Below are positions 56,513 through 64,000 of a DNA stretch of 64,000 nt, one piece after another. The stretch covers positions 1-64,000 of the forward strand of contig JACRDI010000028.1 of assembly GCA_016218665.1 (NCBI GenBank), written 5' to 3'. Below the pieces are notes generated by a model that worked only from the letters and a program-made list of their open reading frames with translations, did not search any database and had not been told where the DNA came from. Every line of letters begins with the position of its first letter. Positions within the stretch are counted from its first letter, which is position 1. The translations under genes were made by a program, and so were the position numbers. Source of the DNA: Desulfovibrio sp. (GTDB taxonomy: Bacteria; Desulfobacterota; Desulfovibrionia; Desulfovibrionales; Desulfovibrionaceae).

Positions 56513-57739
56513 CTAGTCCTGGTAGTCGATGTCCGCGCAGAGGATGCAGGAGCGGTTGTCGCGGTCCTTGTAGGCGGCGGAGATGGTGATGCAGCGGTTG
56601 CCCGAGGCCAGCGATATGTACGGCTGGGTGGTGAACTTGGGCAGGCCGGCGCGCAGGGGCAGGTAGTATTCCTTCAGGGAGTGGTCCGCGCCCACGCGGG
56701 CGGGCTCGTAGATGAAGCGCTTGCGCTTGCGCAGCTTGGCCGGGTTGCACACCGTGCCCGAGAGCTGCACGCCCTTGGCGTTCAGCACGTAAAGGCACTC
56801 GATCTGGCCGTTCTCGTCGATGAACTCGGTGAGGGTCTGGTCCAGCCCGGTGGGGCCCTGGTGGGCCAGGCGCTCGCACATGCCGAGGACCAGGGCGTCG
56901 TGCCGGGCGTAGAGCGCCTTCTGCGCGGCGAAGCGCTCGGTGGCGTGGGTGCGGAACTTCTGCGCCAGGTACTCGATGCGCTCGGCGATGTTCTCCGCCG
57001 GGGGCATGTTCCTGGCCGGCCGGCCGAAGTAGTAGCCCTGGAACACGTCCACGCCGATCTCCAGCAGGCGCAGGATGTCCTCCTGGCGCTCCACGCCCTC
57101 GGCCAGGGCCAGGGAGCCCAGGCGCGAGGCCATCTGCACGAAGCTCTTGACCACCTCCAGCCGCGTCATGTGCCCGTCCACGCCGGAGACCAGCGAGCGG
57201 TCGAGCTTGAGCACGTCGGGCTTGAGCAGGGGAATGCGGTCCAGGTTGGAATGGCCCACGCCCACGTCGTCCAGGGCGATGAGGAAGCCGTTCTTGCGGT
57301 AGTTGCCCACGAAGTCGGCCAGGGCCCCGGTGTCGCGCGCGCGGGATTCCACGATCTCGATGAGCACGTTGTTGGGGCTGATGCCGTACTCCTTCACCTT
57401 GTGCAGCAGCAGGGTGGAGCGGGCCACGTCGGCGTCTATGGCGTGGCCGTCCACGTTGAGGGAGAGGATGAGATCCTTGTTCTTGGCGTGGATGGGGGCG
57501 AAGGCCTCCAGGGCCTTGCGCCGGCACAGCCGGTCCAGCTCCAGCAGGCAGCCGGCCTCGTGCGCCATGCGGAAAAGCTCCTGGGGGGGAATGTCCTCCC
57601 CCGGGGCGGTGCAGCGCGAGAGCGCCTCGACGCCGAGGAGCGCCTTGCGCTTGATGGAGACGAGGGAATGAAAGGCCGTGCCGATCCACTCGCGCTCGAT
57701 GATCTCCTGGATCGTGACGGCTTCCGCAGTGTTTTCCAT
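56513..57739 (-). CDS. EAL-domain cyclic di-GMP phosphodiesterase
   Basis: The 408-residue protein has an EAL domain at about 15-260: LLGVEALSRC, ILSLNVDGHAI, VLIEIVESRA, IALDDVGVGHSNLDR, DVLKLDRSLV, LALAEGVERQ and FQGYYFGRPA. The catalytic EAL Glu, Asn, Asp pair, Lys and final Glu seem present, though DDFGTG is DDVGVG. The C-terminal 140 residues (ECLYVLNAKGVQLSGTVCNP) look like a sensory PDC-like domain in the cytoplasm. The ATG at 57739 lacks a strong ribosome site. Confidence 0.88.
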   Translation of the reverse strand: MENTAEAVTIQEIIEREWIGTAFHSLVSIKRKALLGVEALSRCTAPGEDIPPQELFRMAHEAGCLLELDRLCRRKALEAFAPIHAKNKDLILSLNVDGHAIDADVARSTLLLHKVKEYGISPNNVLIEIVESRARDTGALADFVGNYRKNGFLIALDDVGVGHSNLDRIPLLKPDVLKLDRSLVSGVDGHMTRLEVVKSFVQMASRLGSLALAEGVERQEDILRLLEIGVDVFQGYYFGRPARNMPPAENIAERIEYLAQKFRTHATERFAAQKALYARHDALVLGMCERLAHQGPTGLDQTLTEFIDENGQIECLYVLNAKGVQLSGTVCNPAKLRKRKRFIYEPARVGADHSLKEYYLPLRAGLPKFTTQPYISLASGNRCITISAAYKDRDNRSCILCADIDYQD

Positions 57740-57916
57740 AGGCGTTCGGCCATGAAAGCAAGAGCCGGGCCACTTCTGTAGCCGCTCGGATTCATGCATG
57801 TTTTTTCGCCAGGGGAGGATATGTCGCCGCGAGCATGGACAAAATTGTGGAATGAGCGCCGATCCCTATACAGAAATGAATAAACCCTGCAAAATACCAA
57901 TACGTAGAAAAACCTG

Positions 57917-57945
57917 TTGACATGCCGTGCGCCTGCGGGTAGATG
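57917..57945 (+). promoter_or_regulatory. promoter of the aromatic operon
   Basis: TTGACA (57917-57922) and TAGATG (57940-57945) are separated by 17 bases, a good sigma-70 promoter. Transcription would start near 57952, only two bases before the leader-peptide ATG, so the leader would be almost leaderless unless another promoter exists upstream. Confidence 0.7.
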
Positions 57946-57953
57946 CTCACCTC

Positions 57954-58049
57954 ATGAACGCTTCTTCCGCCAACAATACCACCTTCTCCTTTAGCCAGTA
58001 CTGGTATTATTGGTTTAGCCGCGCCTGCGGCCTGGGAGAGGTGTGTTGA
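57954..58049 (+). CDS. aromatic amino acid leader peptide
   Basis: The 31-residue peptide reads MNASSANNTTFSFSQ, then the run Tyr16-Trp17-Tyr18-Tyr19-Trp20-Phe21, then SRACGLGEVC and a TGA at 58047. Six consecutive aromatic residues in a short ORF between a promoter and a terminator are typical of transcription attenuation. Shortage of charged Tyr-, Trp- or Phe-tRNA would stall the ribosome at 57999-58016. No Shine-Dalgarno is clear before the ATG, which fits a near-leaderless start. Confidence 0.85.
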   Translation: MNASSANNTTFSFSQYWYYWFSRACGLGEVC

Positions 58050-58123
58050 CGGAGACAGGACGTTAACCAAAAGCCTCTTCAGGAAGGGCCGCGGGCGAAA
58101 GCCGGCGGCCCTTCTTTAGTTTT
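58018..58123 (+). terminator. attenuator: antiterminator and terminator arms
   Basis: The terminator has arms 58083-58096 and 58101-58114 (13 of 14 pairs) with a GAAA loop, followed by TTTAGTTTT. The segment 58022-58033 can pair with 58086-58097 over 12 bases (two are G-U), which would take up the left arm of the terminator. Segment 58018-58031 can instead form a small CCGC/GCGG hairpin. The structure lies just behind the aromatic codons of the leader peptide. Confidence 0.85.
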
Positions 58124-58187
58124 CACCGCCGGGACCATCGCCAGACAGACCTTCGCAGGGGCTCAAACCAGACGAAAGGAGCAGGCC

Positions 58188-58991
58188 ATGCACATCGGGA
58201 AAGCTATCAGGCTGGAGCGCATCTTCAACCGCAACACCAAACGCACCATCATCGTGCCCATGGACCACGGCACCACGGTTGGTCCCATCGCCGGCATCGT
58301 GGACATGCGCGAGGCGGTCGGGGCCATCGTGGAAGGCGGGGCCAACGCCGTGCTCATGCACAAGGGCCTGGTCCGCTGCGGCCACCGCAGCCAGGGCAAG
58401 GACATCGGCCTCATCGTCCACCTCTCCGCCTCCACCACCCTTTCCCCCTTCCCCAACGCCAAGACCCTCGTGGGTACCGTCGAGGACGCCATCCGCCTCG
58501 GCGCGGACGCCGTGAGCGTGCACGTGAACCTGGGCGACGAGACCGAGGCCAAGATGCTGGCCGACTTCGGCGCCGTCACCTCCACCGCGCAGAGCTGGGG
58601 CATTCCCGTGCTGGCCATGGTGTACGCCCGCGGCCCCAAGGTCCGCAGCGAGTTCGACCCCGAGATAGTGGCCCACTGCGCCCGCGTGGGCGTGGAACTG
58701 GGGGCCGACGTGGTCAAGGTGCCCTACACCGGCGACGTGGACACCTTCGGCAAGGTGGTGGACGCCTGCTGCGTGCCCGTGGTCATCGCCGGCGGGCCCA
58801 AGCTCGACAGCACCAAGGCCTTCCTGCAGATGGTCCACGACTCCATCAGCGCGGGCGGCTCGGGCCTTTCCGTGGGCCGCAACGTGTTCCAGCACAAGAA
58901 CCCGGCCGTGCTCTGCCAGGCCCTGGCCAAGGTGGTGCACGAGGACGTGGACGTCTCCGACGCGCTGGCCATGCTGGAAGGCAAGGAATAG
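58188..58991 (+). CDS. ADH (DKFP-type) synthase, fructose-bisphosphate aldolase-like
   Basis: The 267-residue protein is a class I aldolase of the kind that starts the alternative shikimate route: [46 protein letters not shown] with the Schiff-base Lys, and [28 protein letters not shown]. It should make 2-amino-3,7-dideoxy-D-threo-hept-6-ulosonate from aspartate semialdehyde and a sugar precursor. GAAAGGAG precedes the ATG. Its place in front of DHQ synthase II supports the role. Confidence 0.9.
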
Positions 58992-59002
58992 GCACGCCGG
59001 CG

Positions 59003-60001
59003 ATGAAAACCATCATCTTCAAGGCCATTCCCTTCCAGAAGAAGCTGGTGACCCTGGCCCTGGAATCGGGCGTGGACGCCATTTTGACCGAAGAGGACAA
59101 GGCCGGGGCCGTGCGCGCCCTGGGCCGCGTCACCGTGCTGACGGAGAAAGACCTGCCCACCTTCGCGCTGAACAAGAAGGCCGACGAGGAAGCCGCCACC
59201 GAGGCCCTGGTCGCCGCGCAGAAAAACGGCGGCATGGTTTCCCTGGCCAAGGGCTGGGAGATCATCCCGGTGGAGAACATCCTGGCCCAGGCCACCGGCC
59301 TTGCGCTGGAGTGCGAGAGCCTTTCGCGCGCGGTGCTGGCAGCGGGCATCCTGGAGCGCGGGGCCGACGCCATCGTGGTCCTGCCCGAGGCCGCGGGCGA
59401 GCTCAAGGCCATCGTGGCCGAGCTCAAGCTTTCGCAAGGGACCATCGACCTGCAGCGCGCCGTGGTGACGGAAATCGTCCCGGCGGGCCTGGGGCACCGG
59501 GTCTGCGTGGACACCATCTCCATGCTTAGGCGCGGCCAGGGCATGCTGGTGGGCAATTCCAGCGCCTTCACCTTCCTGGTCCACGCGGAGACCGAGAGCA
59601 ATCCCTACGTGGCCGCGCGGCCCTTCCGGGTCAACGCGGGCGCGGTGCACGCCTACGCCGTGCTCCCCGGCGACAAGACCTGCTACCTGGAGGAGCTCTC
59701 CGCCGGGCGCGAGGTGCTCATCGTTGGGGCCGACGGCAAGACCAGCCTGACCACCGTGGGCCGGGTCAAGGTCGAGGTGCGGCCCATGCTCAAAATCACC
59801 GCCAAGGTTTCCGCGCCTGATGGATGCGAGGTCTCCGGCCAGGTGTTTTTGCAGAACGCGGAGACCATCCGCGTCACCGGCGTTGACGGCGCGCCTATCA
59901 GCGTGGTGAACCTGAAGCCCGGCGACGAGATTCTCTGCCGCACCGACGCCGCCGGCCGCCACTTCGGCATGCGCATCTGCGAAGACATCAAGGAGGGCTA
60001 G
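59003..60001 (+). CDS. 3-dehydroquinate synthase II
   Basis: The 332-residue protein is the archaeal-type DHQ synthase (AroB'), not the ordinary AroB. Family blocks are IIPVENILAQATGLALECES, VVTEIVPAGLGHRVCVDTIS, GMLVGNSSAFTFLVHAETES, PYVAARPFRVNAGAVHAYAV and GRVKVEVRPMLKITAKV. It deaminates and cyclises ADH to 3-dehydroquinate with NAD. It follows the aldolase by 11 bases and precedes pheA by one base. Confidence 0.92.
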   Translation: MKTIIFKAIPFQKKLVTLALESGVDAILTEEDKAGAVRALGRVTVLTEKDLPTFALNKKADEEAATEALVAAQKNGGMVSLAKGWEIIPVENILAQATGLALECESLSRAVLAAGILERGADAIVVLPEAAGELKAIVAELKLSQGTIDLQRAVVTEIVPAGLGHRVCVDTISMLRRGQGMLVGNSSAFTFLVHAETESNPYVAARPFRVNAGAVHAYAVLPGDKTCYLEELSAGREVLIVGADGKTSLTTVGRVKVEVRPMLKITAKVSAPDGCEVSGQVFLQNAETIRVTGVDGAPISVVNLKPGDEILCRTDAAGRHFGMRICEDIKEG

Positions 60002-60002
60002 G

Positions 60003-61112
60003 GTGAGCGAGAAGAAGACGCCAGACCTGGGCTCCCTGCGGGCGGAGATCGACCGCCTGGACGACGGCATCATGGACCTGCTGAACCGCCGCGCCATCAT
60101 CAGCATCGGCGTGGGCCGGGCCAAGAAGGACTCCCCGGACACGGTGTTCAAGCCCTTCCGCGAGAAGGAGATAATGGAGCGCCTGGCCAAGCAGAACCCC
60201 GGCCCCCTGCCGGACAGCCACCTGCACGCCATCTACCGGGAGATCATGTCCAGCTCCCGCCGTTTGCAGCGCCCGGAGAGGGTGGTCTACCTGGGGCCGG
60301 AGGGCACCTTCAGCTACTTCGCGGGGCTCGAATACATGGGCAGAAGCGCGGAGCTGACGCCCAAGGCCAACTTCGAGGAGATCTTCCGCGCCGTGGCTGA
60401 CGGCGAGGCCGAGCTGGGCGTCATCCCCCTGGAGAACTCGCTGCAGGGCACGGTGGGCCAGGTGGTGGACCTGTTCATGCTCTTTCCTGTGTACATCCAG
60501 TCGGAGCTCTTCTGCCGCATCACCCACTGCCTCATGGGCAAGGCCGAGAGCCTGGCCGAGGTGCAGGAGGTGCACTCCCACCCGCAGCCGCTGGATCAGT
60601 GCTCGGACTGGCTGAAGAACAACCTGCCCGGCCGCACCCTGGTGCCGGCCAGCAGCACCGCCGCGGCCGCGGAGATCGCCGCCGAGCGCGGGCCCTCGGT
60701 GGCCACCATCGGGCACATCAGCCTGGCCGAGCGCTACGGCCTGAACATCCTGGCCGCGCACATCGAGGACATGCCCGACAACTGGACGCGCTTTCTGGTC
60801 ATCGGGCCGCGCCCGGGCGAGGGCGGCAACCGCGACAAGACCTCGCTGCTGTTCACCGTGCCGGACAAGCCGGGCGCCCTGGCCGAGGTGCTGAACACCT
60901 TCGCCGGGCGGGCCATCAACATCACCAAGCTGGAAAGCCGCCCGCTGCGCGGCGAGAAGTGGAAGTACGTGTTCTTCACGGACCTGGAGTGCGACCTCTC
61001 GCGCATGGAGTACGACAGCTTCCTGGCCGATCTGCGGGAGCGCTGCCACACCCTGCGCATCCTGGGCTCCTACCCGTCCGGCCCGCACCTGGACGCCGGA
61101 GGCCGCCAGTGA
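60003..61112 (+). CDS. pheA: chorismate mutase/prephenate dehydratase
   Basis: The 369-residue protein has a chorismate mutase domain (LGSLRAEIDRLDDGIMDLLN) at about 5-90, a prephenate dehydratase domain (VVYLGPEGTFSYFAGLEYMG, GVIPLENSLQGTVGQVVDLF, PASSTAAAAEIAAERG) and a C-terminal ACT domain (SLLFTVPDKPGALAEVLNTF, ITKLESRPLRGEKWKY), which usually gives Phe feedback. It makes phenylpyruvate from chorismate. The start is GTG, right after the previous stop. Confidence 0.95.
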   Translation: MSEKKTPDLGSLRAEIDRLDDGIMDLLNRRAIISIGVGRAKKDSPDTVFKPFREKEIMERLAKQNPGPLPDSHLHAIYREIMSSSRRLQRPERVVYLGPEGTFSYFAGLEYMGRSAELTPKANFEEIFRAVADGEAELGVIPLENSLQGTVGQVVDLFMLFPVYIQSELFCRITHCLMGKAESLAEVQEVHSHPQPLDQCSDWLKNNLPGRTLVPASSTAAAAEIAAERGPSVATIGHISLAERYGLNILAAHIEDMPDNWTRFLVIGPRPGEGGNRDKTSLLFTVPDKPGALAEVLNTFAGRAINITKLESRPLRGEKWKYVFFTDLECDLSRMEYDSFLADLRERCHTLRILGSYPSGPHLDAGGRQ

Positions 61113-62446
61113 GCCAGACGCCTCTTCTTGTTGAGGCTCCCGCCTCCAAGTCCCTCTCGCACCGGGCGCTCATCTGCGCCGCGCTGGCAGGGGGGGGAAG
61201 CCGCCTCGCCGGCGTGCTGGAAAGCCAGGACACCGCCCGCACCATGGGCTGCCTCTCCGCCTGCGGGGCCTCCTTCAGCCGCGCGCACGAGGGCGAGTTC
61301 CTGGTGCGCGGCGTGGGCGGCAGCCTGGAGGGCGGCACGGCCCAGGCCCCGGCGGACCTGAACGTCGGGGAATCCGGCACCACCTGCCGCCTGCTGGCGG
61401 GCGTGGCCGCCGCCGGGCGCGGCTTTTTCCGCATCCACGGCGAGGGCCGCATGCACGACAGGCCCCTGGGCGAGCCCGCCCGCGCCCTGGCCCCCTTGGG
61501 CGTGCGCTACCATTTCGAGGAAAAGCCCGGCTACCCGCCGGTGGTCATCGAGACCTCCGGCCTGCCCGGCGGCGAGGTTGACGTGCGCCTGGAGGAGAGC
61601 AGCCAGTATCTCTCCGGCATCCTGCTGGCCGCGCCGCTGGCCAACGCGCCCATGACCATCGCCATCTCCGGCACCAAGGCCGTGTCCTGGCCGTATGTCT
61701 CCCTCACCCTGCAGGCCATGGCCGACTTCGGCGCGCCCGCCGTGGTGGAGGTGCTGAAGGACGGCGCGTTCGCCGCCGTGGACCACGCCTCGGTCACCCG
61801 CGCGGAGCCGGGCACGCTGCGCTTCCGCGTGCAGCCGGGCAAGTATTCGCCCCGCACCCTGCGGGTGGAGGGCGACTGGAGCAACGCCTCCTACTTCCTG
61901 GCCGCCGGGGCCGTGGGCAGGCGCCCGGTGCGCGTCACCGGCCTGCGGCGTGATTCCCTCCAGGGCGACCGCGCCATCCTGGACATCCTGGCCGCCATGG
62001 GCGCGCGCATGGAGTGGGACGCCGACGGCGTCACCGTGTCGCCCGCGCCCCTTTGCGGCGTGCACGTGGACATGGGCCCCTGCCCGGACCTGGTGCCCAC
62101 GGTGGCCGTGGCCGCCTGCTTCGCCACGGGCCCGACGACCATCACCAACGTCGCCCACCTGCGCATCAAGGAAAGCGACCGGCTGGAGGCCCTGGCCGTG
62201 GAGATAGCCAAGACCGGCTGCGGCACGGCCATGACCGATGACAGCCTGACCATCACGCCCGCGCCCCTGCAAAAGGGGCAGCGCGTGGCGTTCGCCACCC
62301 GTTCCGACCACAGATTGGTCATGGGCCCGGCGCTCTTCTCTCTGGCCGGGCTTGATGTCTCCTTCGACAAGCCGGACTGCGTGGCCAAGAGCTTCCCCGG
62401 CTTCTGGGGGGCCTTCGGCCCTGTCATTGGGGGGCAGCCCGAATGA
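61109..62446 (+). CDS. aroA: 3-phosphoshikimate 1-carboxyvinyltransferase (EPSP synthase)
   Basis: The 445-residue protein has the EPSP synthase motifs VEAPASKSLSHRALICAALA, LNVGESGTTCRLLAG, MHDRPLGEPARAL, EESSQYLSGILLAAP, NVAHLRIKESDRLEAL and SDHRLVMGPALFSLAG. It joins shikimate-3-phosphate and PEP. The GTG start overlaps the pheA stop by four bases, so translation is coupled. Confidence 0.96.
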   Translation: MSQTPLLVEAPASKSLSHRALICAALAGGGSRLAGVLESQDTARTMGCLSACGASFSRAHEGEFLVRGVGGSLEGGTAQAPADLNVGESGTTCRLLAGVAAAGRGFFRIHGEGRMHDRPLGEPARALAPLGVRYHFEEKPGYPPVVIETSGLPGGEVDVRLEESSQYLSGILLAAPLANAPMTIAISGTKAVSWPYVSLTLQAMADFGAPAVVEVLKDGAFAAVDHASVTRAEPGTLRFRVQPGKYSPRTLRVEGDWSNASYFLAAGAVGRRPVRVTGLRRDSLQGDRAILDILAAMGARMEWDADGVTVSPAPLCGVHVDMGPCPDLVPTVAVAACFATGPTTITNVAHLRIKESDRLEALAVEIAKTGCGTAMTDDSLTITPAPLQKGQRVAFATRSDHRLVMGPALFSLAGLDVSFDKPDCVAKSFPGFWGAFGPVIGGQPE

Positions 62447-63249
62447 CCATCGGCAACGGGACTGTCGGCAACGGCGCGAAAGCCCAGGCGGCGGACGTGC
62501 GCATCAAGACCATCGCCATCGTGGGCGCGCGCGGCCAGATGGGCGCGCTCTTCGCCCGCACCTTCCACAAGGCGGGCTACGCCGTGTCCACCCTGGACCG
62601 GCCGTACACCGGCGAGGCCATCCGCTCCGCCATTCCCGGGGCGGACATGGTGCTCATTTCCGTGCCCGTCACCGCCACCCGCCAGGTGGCCGACACCCTG
62701 GCCCCGCACATGAAGGCCGGGGCCATCCTGTGCGATGTCTGCTCCGTGAAGGTGAACCCGCTGGAGCAGATGCTGGCCGCCTATTCCGGGCCCGTCGTGG
62801 GCACGCACCCGCTGTTTGGCCCGGTGATTCCCGAGGGCTTCGAGCCCCGCGTGGCCGTCACCCCCGGGCGCGGCCAAGGGGCCCCGGAAGCCGTGGGCGA
62901 AGTCTTCGCCCGCGCGGGCTTCACGCCCTTCGCCAGCACGGCCGAGGAGCACGACCGGGCCATGGCCGTGGTGCAGGGCCTCAATTTCATCACCACCACG
63001 GCCTACCTGGCCGCCGCCAGGCAGACCCCAGGCATCGAGAAGTTCCGCGTGCCCTCCTTCGAGCGCAGGCTTGAGGCGGCGCGCAAGATGCTCACCCAGG
63101 ACCGCGAGCTCTTCCAGCTCATCAGCGAGGACAACCCCTTCCTGCAGGAGACCGTGCGGCAGTTCACGGCCTACCTCGACCTGGCCGCAGGGGGCGATCT
63201 GGACCTGCTCTCCGCCAGGGCATCCTGGTGGTGGCGCGACACGGCATAG
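62443..63249 (+). CDS. tyrA: prephenate dehydrogenase
   Basis: The 268-residue protein has a Rossmann start IAIVGARGQMGALFARTFHK, the VLISVPVTATRQVADTL segment and VVGTHPLFGPVIPEGFEPRV with the catalytic His. It turns prephenate to 4-hydroxyphenylpyruvate with NAD(P). The ATG overlaps the aroA stop (ATGA). The stop codon at 63247-63249 ends on the first base of the antiterminator arm before trpE. Confidence 0.93.
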   Translation: MTIGNGTVGNGAKAQAADVRIKTIAIVGARGQMGALFARTFHKAGYAVSTLDRPYTGEAIRSAIPGADMVLISVPVTATRQVADTLAPHMKAGAILCDVCSVKVNPLEQMLAAYSGPVVGTHPLFGPVIPEGFEPRVAVTPGRGQGAPEAVGEVFARAGFTPFASTAEEHDRAMAVVQGLNFITTTAYLAAARQTPGIEKFRVPSFERRLEAARKMLTQDRELFQLISEDNPFLQETVRQFTAYLDLAAGGDLDLLSARASWWWRDTA

Positions 63250-63347: not shown

Positions 63348-64000
63348 ATGGACATTCGCCTGAAGCATTACGGAAAATGGCTGCCCGCCGACGTGCAGAC
63401 GCCCATCAGCCTGTACCTGGGCCTGGTGGGCGACGCCCCCGGCATCCTCTTGGAAAGCGCCGAGGTGGACGGCCGCCTGGGCCGCTTCAGCCTCATCGCC
63501 TGGGATTTCCGTCTCGTGGCGGAGCCCGTGGACGGCAAGCTCAAGCTGGACATCCGCGACGAGCGCCTGGCCCCCCTGGCCGCCCTGGAAGGGCTGGACT
63601 ACATGGAAGGCGTGCGCAGGATGCTCAAGGGCATCGACATCGACCAGCCCGCGCTCAAGGAGCCCCTGCCCGCGCTGACCCGCGCGCTGCTCGGCTACCT
63701 GGGCTACAGCGTGGGCGGCATGCTGGAGCCCAAGCTCACCAAATGCATGCCCCCGGAAAAGGCCGAGGCCCGCCTTGTGCTGCCCGGCCAGCTGGTGCTG
63801 TACGACCACCTGCGCCACCGCTGCTGCTACCTCTCGCTGGACGAGCACGGCAGCGACGGCCGCGGCGGGCCGAAGCCGGCCAGGCTGGGCAGCGCGGGCG
63901 GCTTCGACCTGGACACCGAGGAGCCCTCGGCCACGCCCGGCCGCGAGGAGTACATGGAGCAGGTGCGGGAGGCCAAGCGCCTCATCACCGAGGGCGAGGG
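63348..64000 (+). CDS. trpE: anthranilate synthase component I (partial)
   Basis: The first 217 residues are in the window: MDIRLKHYGKWLPADVQTPI, then ISLYLGLVGDAPGILLESAE, LGRFSLIAWDFRLVA, ALLGYLGYSVGGMLEP and REEYMEQVREAKRLITEGE. This is the N-terminal domain and the start of the catalytic chorismate-binding part. LLESAE is the usual tryptophan-binding feedback box. ACGGAGGGG lies before the ATG. It is probably followed by trpG and other trp genes outside the window. Confidence 0.93.
   Translation, partial: MDIRLKHYGKWLPADVQTPISLYLGLVGDAPGILLESAEVDGRLGRFSLIAWDFRLVAEPVDGKLKLDIRDERLAPLAALEGLDYMEGVRRMLKGIDIDQPALKEPLPALTRALLGYLGYSVGGMLEPKLTKCMPPEKAEARLVLPGQLVLYDHLRHRCCYLSLDEHGSDGRGGPKPARLGSAGGFDLDTEEPSATPGREEYMEQVREAKRLITEGE

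Follow-up and report, generated by a model that had tools for sequence, protein, structure and literature searches.

A probable leader peptide attenuator with tyrosine, tryptophan, and phenylalanine codons ahead of the aromatic amino acid operon in Desulfovibrionales

Expression of the aromatic amino acid operon that begins in the window (the whole 64,000-nucleotide stretch of DNA analyzed, which belongs to contig C22 in a genome of 2.85 Mb and 45 contigs, 84% complete) is very probably set by a ribosome-mediated transcription attenuator sensing Phe, Tyr, and Trp together. Attenuation is clearly the best reading of the anatomy of the region, its covariation, and its gene-matched codons. The sequence contains leader codons that match the products of the operon, an intrinsic terminator before the first gene, and an antiterminator mutually exclusive with that terminator. 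The sequence and a comparison of loci show these parts and that they are conserved, that the antiterminator covaries, how the parts are spaced, and that codons and genes match.

As described in the initial annotation of positions 57917-58123, an ORF of 31 codons with six consecutive aromatic codons lies between a promoter and a terminator. The leader ORF (57954-58049, plus strand) encodes MNASSANNTTFSFSQYWYYWFSRACGLGEVC and ends with a stop codon at 58047-58049. The putative regulatory codons, Tyr-Trp-Tyr-Tyr-Trp-Phe (57999-58016, within QYWYYWF), are the only run of six aromatic codons in all six frames of the window, and no such run arose in 60 sequences simulated from the base-to-base frequencies of the window. 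The promoter (57917-57945, plus strand), recognized from the sequence and the alignment, consists of a -35 element TTGACA (57917-57922), a spacer of 17 bp, and a -10-like element TAGATG (57940-57945), with the leader ATG at 57954 following after 8 bp. No Shine-Dalgarno-like element was found before this ATG. A generic promoter and terminator scan of positions 57700-58300 scored neither element, which we attribute to the absence of the final T from the -10 element, the terminator mismatch, and the broken U-tract. Adjoining the operon promoter is a divergent gene on the minus strand (56513-57799), the best matches of which are EAL-type c-di-GMP phosphodiesterases.

The terminator is a hairpin with a GAAA loop (58083-58114, plus strand; arms 58083-58096 and 58101-58114). 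Sequence and folding agree with the 13 of 14 base pairs originally assigned to it, the sole mismatch in the stem being G58093·G58104. The hairpin alone is very stable (-30.9 kcal/mol) and is followed by an interrupted U-tract (58115-58123). The 5' segment of the antiterminator, region 2 (58022-58042), lies within the leader ORF and was delimited from the sequence, pairing counts, and RNAalifold; the 3' segment, region 3 (58073-58097), was delimited from pairing counts and overlaps the left arm of the terminator. Pairing of the 12-base segment 58022-58033 with positions 58086-58097, already proposed in the initial annotation, comprises 10 Watson-Crick and 2 G-U pairs (counted by hand on the sequence) and was equalled in none of 100 shuffles. 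Pairing of 58036-58042 with 58073-58079 lengthens the antiterminator. RNA folding, which had been put forward as a check, gave a z-score of -5.2 for the 172-nt leader RNA, and none of 200 shuffles was as good. The RNAalifold consensus of the 16 closest sequences additionally contains a local hairpin (58018-58031, plus strand; 58018-58022 with 58027-58031) that would mask the region 2 core and is a candidate protector of this segment. Few pairs of this hairpin vary in the consensus, and changes on both sides occur in only 4 of the 41 consensus pairs overall, which is too little variation to prove structure. Among the Rfam leader families, Trp_leader included, none matched at the gathering score in the window, where the only Rfam matches were to 5S rRNA and a tRNA; at a relaxed threshold, positions 57850-58200 gave only unrelated, weak, sub-threshold matches. 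A T-box riboswitch is a less favored reading, with no T-box model match in the window or in the relaxed search.

For the transcription start, the stalling, the switch, and the response to each amino acid, we infer the following scheme. RNA polymerase would begin at or a few bases from the leader ATG, giving a leaderless or near-leaderless transcript. When charged tRNA-Tyr, tRNA-Trp, or tRNA-Phe is scarce, the ribosome would stall in YWYYWF, leaving region 2 free to pair with region 3. With the terminator's left arm engaged in this pairing, transcription would proceed into aroA'. With all three charged tRNAs plentiful, the ribosome would reach the stop codon at 58047 and cover region 2, and the terminator at 58083-58114 would form.

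The operon behind the leader is composed of 12 genes, aroA' aroB' pheA aroA tyrA trpEGDCFBA (those inside the window on the plus strand), which on the basis of their spacing probably form one transcript. The initial annotation had counted six genes; trpE in fact runs past the window end and is followed by trpGDCFBA. It had correctly placed the alternative shikimate enzymes at the head of the operon, both of which score above the family cut-offs: aroA' (58188-58991), encoding 2-amino-3,7-dideoxy-D-threo-hept-6-ulosonate (ADH) synthase (TIGR01949, 394.5 bits, cut-off 299.45), and aroB' (59003-60001), encoding 3-dehydroquinate synthase II (NF002628, 528.3 bits, cut-off 508). These are followed by pheA (60003-61112; chorismate mutase/prephenate dehydratase; NF008865, 246.1 bits, cut-off 219), aroA (61112-62446; 3-phosphoshikimate 1-carboxyvinyltransferase; TIGR01356, 347.9 bits, cut-off 287.25), and tyrA (62443-63249; prephenate dehydrogenase family; best match NF008400 at 135.3 bits, below the cut-off of 273). 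The window stops inside trpE (63348-64000), which continues to contig position 64775, and the remaining trp genes extend in the order G, D, C, F, B, A up to contig position 69918. The names tyrA, trpE, trpC, and trpF, with scores below the NCBIfam equivalog cut-offs, are based on best family and operon order. The best matches of the window AroA' in named genomes are from Desulfovibrionaceae, several of them titled Humidesulfovibrio.

The relatives used for comparison were the best 80 named loci of a longer match list plus loci and stretches from other genomes of the order, part of the latter loci being a chosen subset of the matches listed. After removal of 10 duplicates there were 182 AroA' rows, of which 123 have DHQS or are cut off early, 51 are solo, and 8 are aroA'-pheA loci. 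Subtracting 3 second or repeated copies in tandem loci from the 123 gives 120 operon loci, the window's included. An aromatic leader and a terminator are present at 118 of these 120 loci; at the two without a leader, L077 and L043, the sequence ahead of the gene is just 116 and 206 bases long. Of the 118 operon leaders, 117 have a pairing between region 2 and the terminator left arm that no more than 5 of 100 dinucleotide shuffles equalled; at the single failure, L227, the script picked the wrong ORF. Leader codons and pairing arms, the conservation of which was to decide the reading in the initial annotation, are thus kept in relatives, in counts that are not independent because many loci are close kin. 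Six of the eight aroA'-pheA loci pass the pairing test, L071 fails it, and L064 has no leader and terminator. At two loci (L149 in G074 and L151 in G060), a tandem duplicate aroA' heads the operon behind one attenuator.

Because the closest sequences varied so little, pairs were counted across 143 diverse leaders out of 157, filtered for good pairing. The other 14 were left out because the pairing test failed, there was no recognizable terminator, or the left arm departed too far from the consensus, as was the case for the Trp-less leader L170. Across the 143 leaders 93% of cells pair, a value biased upward by the filtering and by the choice of the best-fitting partner segment. In 112 of the 143 leaders, column 8 of the left arm (G58093 in the window, with U58026 as its partner) is unpaired within the terminator. 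The same column pairs with region 2 in 142 of 143 (A-U 87, G-C 34, G-U 19, and U-A 2), the exception being one A·C. When region 2 was re-dealt among the loci, ignoring relatedness, the expected number of Watson-Crick pairs was 78.4 ± 4.9, compared with 123 observed, a value reached in none of 2000 shuffles; by this test column 8 covaries with region 2, covarying stems having been put forward as a check in the initial annotation. By parsimony on the AroA' tree (105 rows), one side of the column 8 pair changes 11 times and the other 9 times; a tree-based independence test of this pair, too weak with only 3 independent pairs on starred branches, was not significant. Counted from the initial base of the final aromatic codon, region 2 starts 9, 12, 15, or 18 nt downstream in 134 of the 143 leaders. 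Given the footprint of a ribosome, this spacing implies that region 2 would be free when the ribosome stalls in the codon run and covered once it has reached the stop codon.

The codons of the leader track the gene content. Where trpE is in cis, every one of the 72 leaders has codons for Trp, Tyr, and Phe: 25 from named loci (of 26, one of which lacks leader sequence) and all 47 from coded genomes. This supports the earlier suggestion that one leader may read all three amino acids. All three kinds of codon are also carried by 13 of 14 named loci on contigs too short to tell, the other being without sequence. When trpE is on a different contig or lies over 100 kb from the operon, 24 of 26 leaders have Trp codons and all 26 have Tyr and Phe codons; the two genomes of this group that have lost Trp codons are G072 and G118. 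In the four genomes without TrpE and TrpD (G044, G035, G086, and G101, each 99% complete), Trp codons are found in none of the four leaders and Tyr and Phe codons in all four, absence being defined as no match at E ≤ 1e-60 for TrpE and at E ≤ 1e-15 for TrpD. One weak TrpE match in G044 (30% identity, E = 2.6e-22) is taken to be another chorismate-using enzyme. These four genomes represent about three lineages on the AroA' tree, from which L161 was thinned as a near copy of L059, with one split falling on an unstarred branch. Two genomes with no TrpE or TrpD match, G019 and G041, have contigs that end inside the operon and yet keep Trp codons; with G057, in which the operon contig is short, they make up an ambiguous set with Trp codons in 3 of 3. 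G084 gave neither a TrpE nor an AroA' match. A TrpB-like protein, possibly serving indole salvage, is kept in G044, G035, and G101 despite the lack of a TrpE or TrpD match, and there is none in G086. Seven separate trpE genes away from the aro operon were inspected with a scan that required 4 aromatic residues in 7 and may miss Trp leaders. A WWW leader was found at three (L181, L183, and L187) and a weaker WW candidate at L184, while nothing was found at L182 and L185, and the only candidate at L186 was unrelated.

The genome of the window contains a second AroA' gene, which appears to be solo (L084; G000:C29:192064-192864, minus strand). Its leader, MNLCATQSTVFFFASVFFGFSRACGRGGVC, contains Phe as the only aromatic residue (FFF...FFGF) and is followed by a tail, region 3, and terminator that resemble those of the window. 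Searching this genome for the exact motif gave just two occurrences of the device, each ahead of an AroA' gene, and we regard the L084 device as a diverged Phe-codon copy of the window attenuator. A leader and terminator were called at 29 of the 51 solo loci, or 28 after dropping L017; the leader-like matches upstream of L017 and L019 were dismissed as chance. The pairing test was passed by 21 of the 28. The leaders that fail it (L044, L055, L133, L144, L202, L231, and L232) have the terminator, and 8-39 of 100 shuffles were as good. The 14-residue core of the 28 solo leaders contains Phe without Tyr in 9, more Phe than Tyr in 8, Tyr without Phe in 5, and more Tyr than Phe in 6. Trp is found in the core of none of the 28; a Trp codon is present outside the core in some, behind it in the tail in 5 and before it in 2 (longest reading). 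No leader and terminator were found at the other 22 solo copies; a Phe run is present at one of these, L051. The attenuator appears to be lost from solo isozymes L014-L018 and from L023, where the upstream sequence is partly masked. A tRNA-like sequence, read by eye, lies just upstream of solo aroA' at L015, L017, and L023. Several genomes have a third solo AroA' paralogue without a recognized aromatic leader (L116, L119, L122, L125, L128, and L131).

On the AroA' tree (143), which was built by a quick method and is unrooted, the solo label changes 7 times, and starred branches force at least 5 of these changes. In the window group, solo and operon copies are sister to each other, and a single group unites the Tyr-rich copies from Solidesulfovibrio and its kin. 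On balance we favor the view that the Desulfovibrionales have a family of interchangeable leaderless attenuator heads, with Tyr, Trp, and Phe codons for the operon and Phe or Tyr codons for the AroA' isozymes, re-tuned repeatedly and with Trp codons lost along with Trp synthesis. This view is weakened by the failure of the pairing test in 7 of the 28 isozyme leaders and by the tail Trp codon in 5.

The presence of a codon does not by itself imply a response: the aroF leader of Corynebacterium glutamicum, which has Phe-Tyr-Phe codons, is described as responding to Phe and not to Tyr (PMC11802643). In addition, a published model, as that source presents it, gives lower sensitivity when regulatory codons make up only part of the control region (PMC1183508). 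It is conceivable, if rather doubtful, that the window attenuator responds to just one or two amino acids, for example Trp or Phe, with the other aromatic codons as passengers. Against this stand the three kinds of codon in every trpE-in-cis leader, the disappearance of Trp codons from all four genomes without TrpE and TrpD, and isozyme leader cores that are mostly Phe or mostly Tyr.

The leader ATG had been noted in the initial annotation to lie about two bases from the predicted transcription start, and comparison supports such a near-zero 5' untranslated region. A TTGACA-like promoter was called in 115 of 157 leaders and in none of the other 42. The first in-frame ATG is 6-9 bp past the -10 element in 71 of the 115, which implies leaderless translation, and in the alignment of the 13 closest loci, the window included, this distance is 8 bp in each. 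The leader start is therefore probably leaderless, judging from these distances, and a precedent is given by Sinorhizobium meliloti rnTrpL, reported to begin with the trpL ATG (PMC7298713). That the attenuator is real and its leader has an ordinary 5' untranslated region is unlikely in view of the short, repeated spacing, but it would agree with the weak -10 match in the window and with the leaders of genus g2, taken to be Desulfovibrio in the strict sense, in which the ATG is mostly 18-31 bp past the -10 element, often with an AGGA- or GGAG-like element.

The S. meliloti rnTrpL RNA and its peptide (peTrpL) are also reported to act in trans (PMC7298713), and a functional aromatic-rich peptide or terminated leader RNA might act in trans here, with cis control secondary. 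Such a role is very unlikely: the peptide core varies between W-, Y-, and F-rich forms; the conserved tail is partly explained by RNA pairing, with a tail-codon base covarying with the terminator arm; and the motif occurs in the window's genome only ahead of its two AroA' genes. A constitutive partial terminator that senses nothing and merely lowers operon expression, a reading in line with the stability of the hairpin alone, is hardly credible given that complementarity to region 2 is maintained at the base left mismatched within the terminator, that the spacing from codons to region 2 is in phase, and that codon content tracks gene content.

A search of the open-licence literature on Desulfovibrio and Desulfovibrionales for attenuation, leader peptides, aromatic codons, and transcript starts found no such paper; an earlier mention is possible. 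RNA-seq of Desulfovibrio hydrothermalis is described as showing joint changes in the cluster from the aldolase gene DESAMv2_21548 through trpF (PMC4162548). For Desulfovibrio desulfuricans 27774, the Ddes_0334-0338 aromatic cluster is reported to be up with NO, and the aromatic genes to be nitrate-induced, which its authors call unexplained (PMC5701242). The attenuator is a potential explanation of cluster co-regulation in these RNA-seq studies, and its relief is a possible cause of the induction by NO and nitrate. Three features look new: a head for three amino acids in front of a whole-pathway operon, isozyme copies with re-tuned codons, and a start that is probably leaderless. If true, the arrangement would provide a natural series of re-tuned attenuators in which the same RNA switch carries codon heads predictable from the genes present. 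Such a series would open to study the integration of three signals, the codon-level evolution of isozyme control, and control by stalling on a leaderless transcript, and it predicts control of aromatic synthesis across an order of sulfate reducers.

The trp leader attenuators of the Escherichia coli trpL type (Rfam RF00513) follow the same logic as the window, with a leader ORF of regulatory codons and a competing antiterminator and terminator. The window differs in having Tyr, Trp, and Phe codons together, in standing before a 12-gene operon that starts at the first pathway step, in having the antiterminator core of region 2 inside the ORF, and in matching no leader family at the gathering score. 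The enterobacterial ilvGMEDA and thr leaders likewise have codons for several amino acids in one leader peptide; these are branched-chain amino acids and Thr/Ile rather than aromatic ones, and we know of no isozyme copies of these leaders with re-tuned codons. The nearest precedent is the aroR leader ahead of aroF in C. glutamicum, reportedly described by Neshat et al. in 2014. It is likewise an aromatic-codon attenuator ahead of a first-step aromatic enzyme; however, that enzyme is DAHP synthase rather than ADH synthase, no Trp codons are mentioned, and the organism belongs to another phylum. S. meliloti trpL shares with our proposal an attenuator transcript starting at the leader ATG, whereas its codons are described as Trp codons and its target as trpE(G) (PMC7298713). 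Finally, the E. coli first-step isozymes AroF, AroG, and AroH are reported to be separately controlled by different aromatic amino acids through feedback and the TyrR and TrpR repressors (PMC5343134), whereas here different leader codons would do so, a codon-based equivalent of the same isozyme logic.
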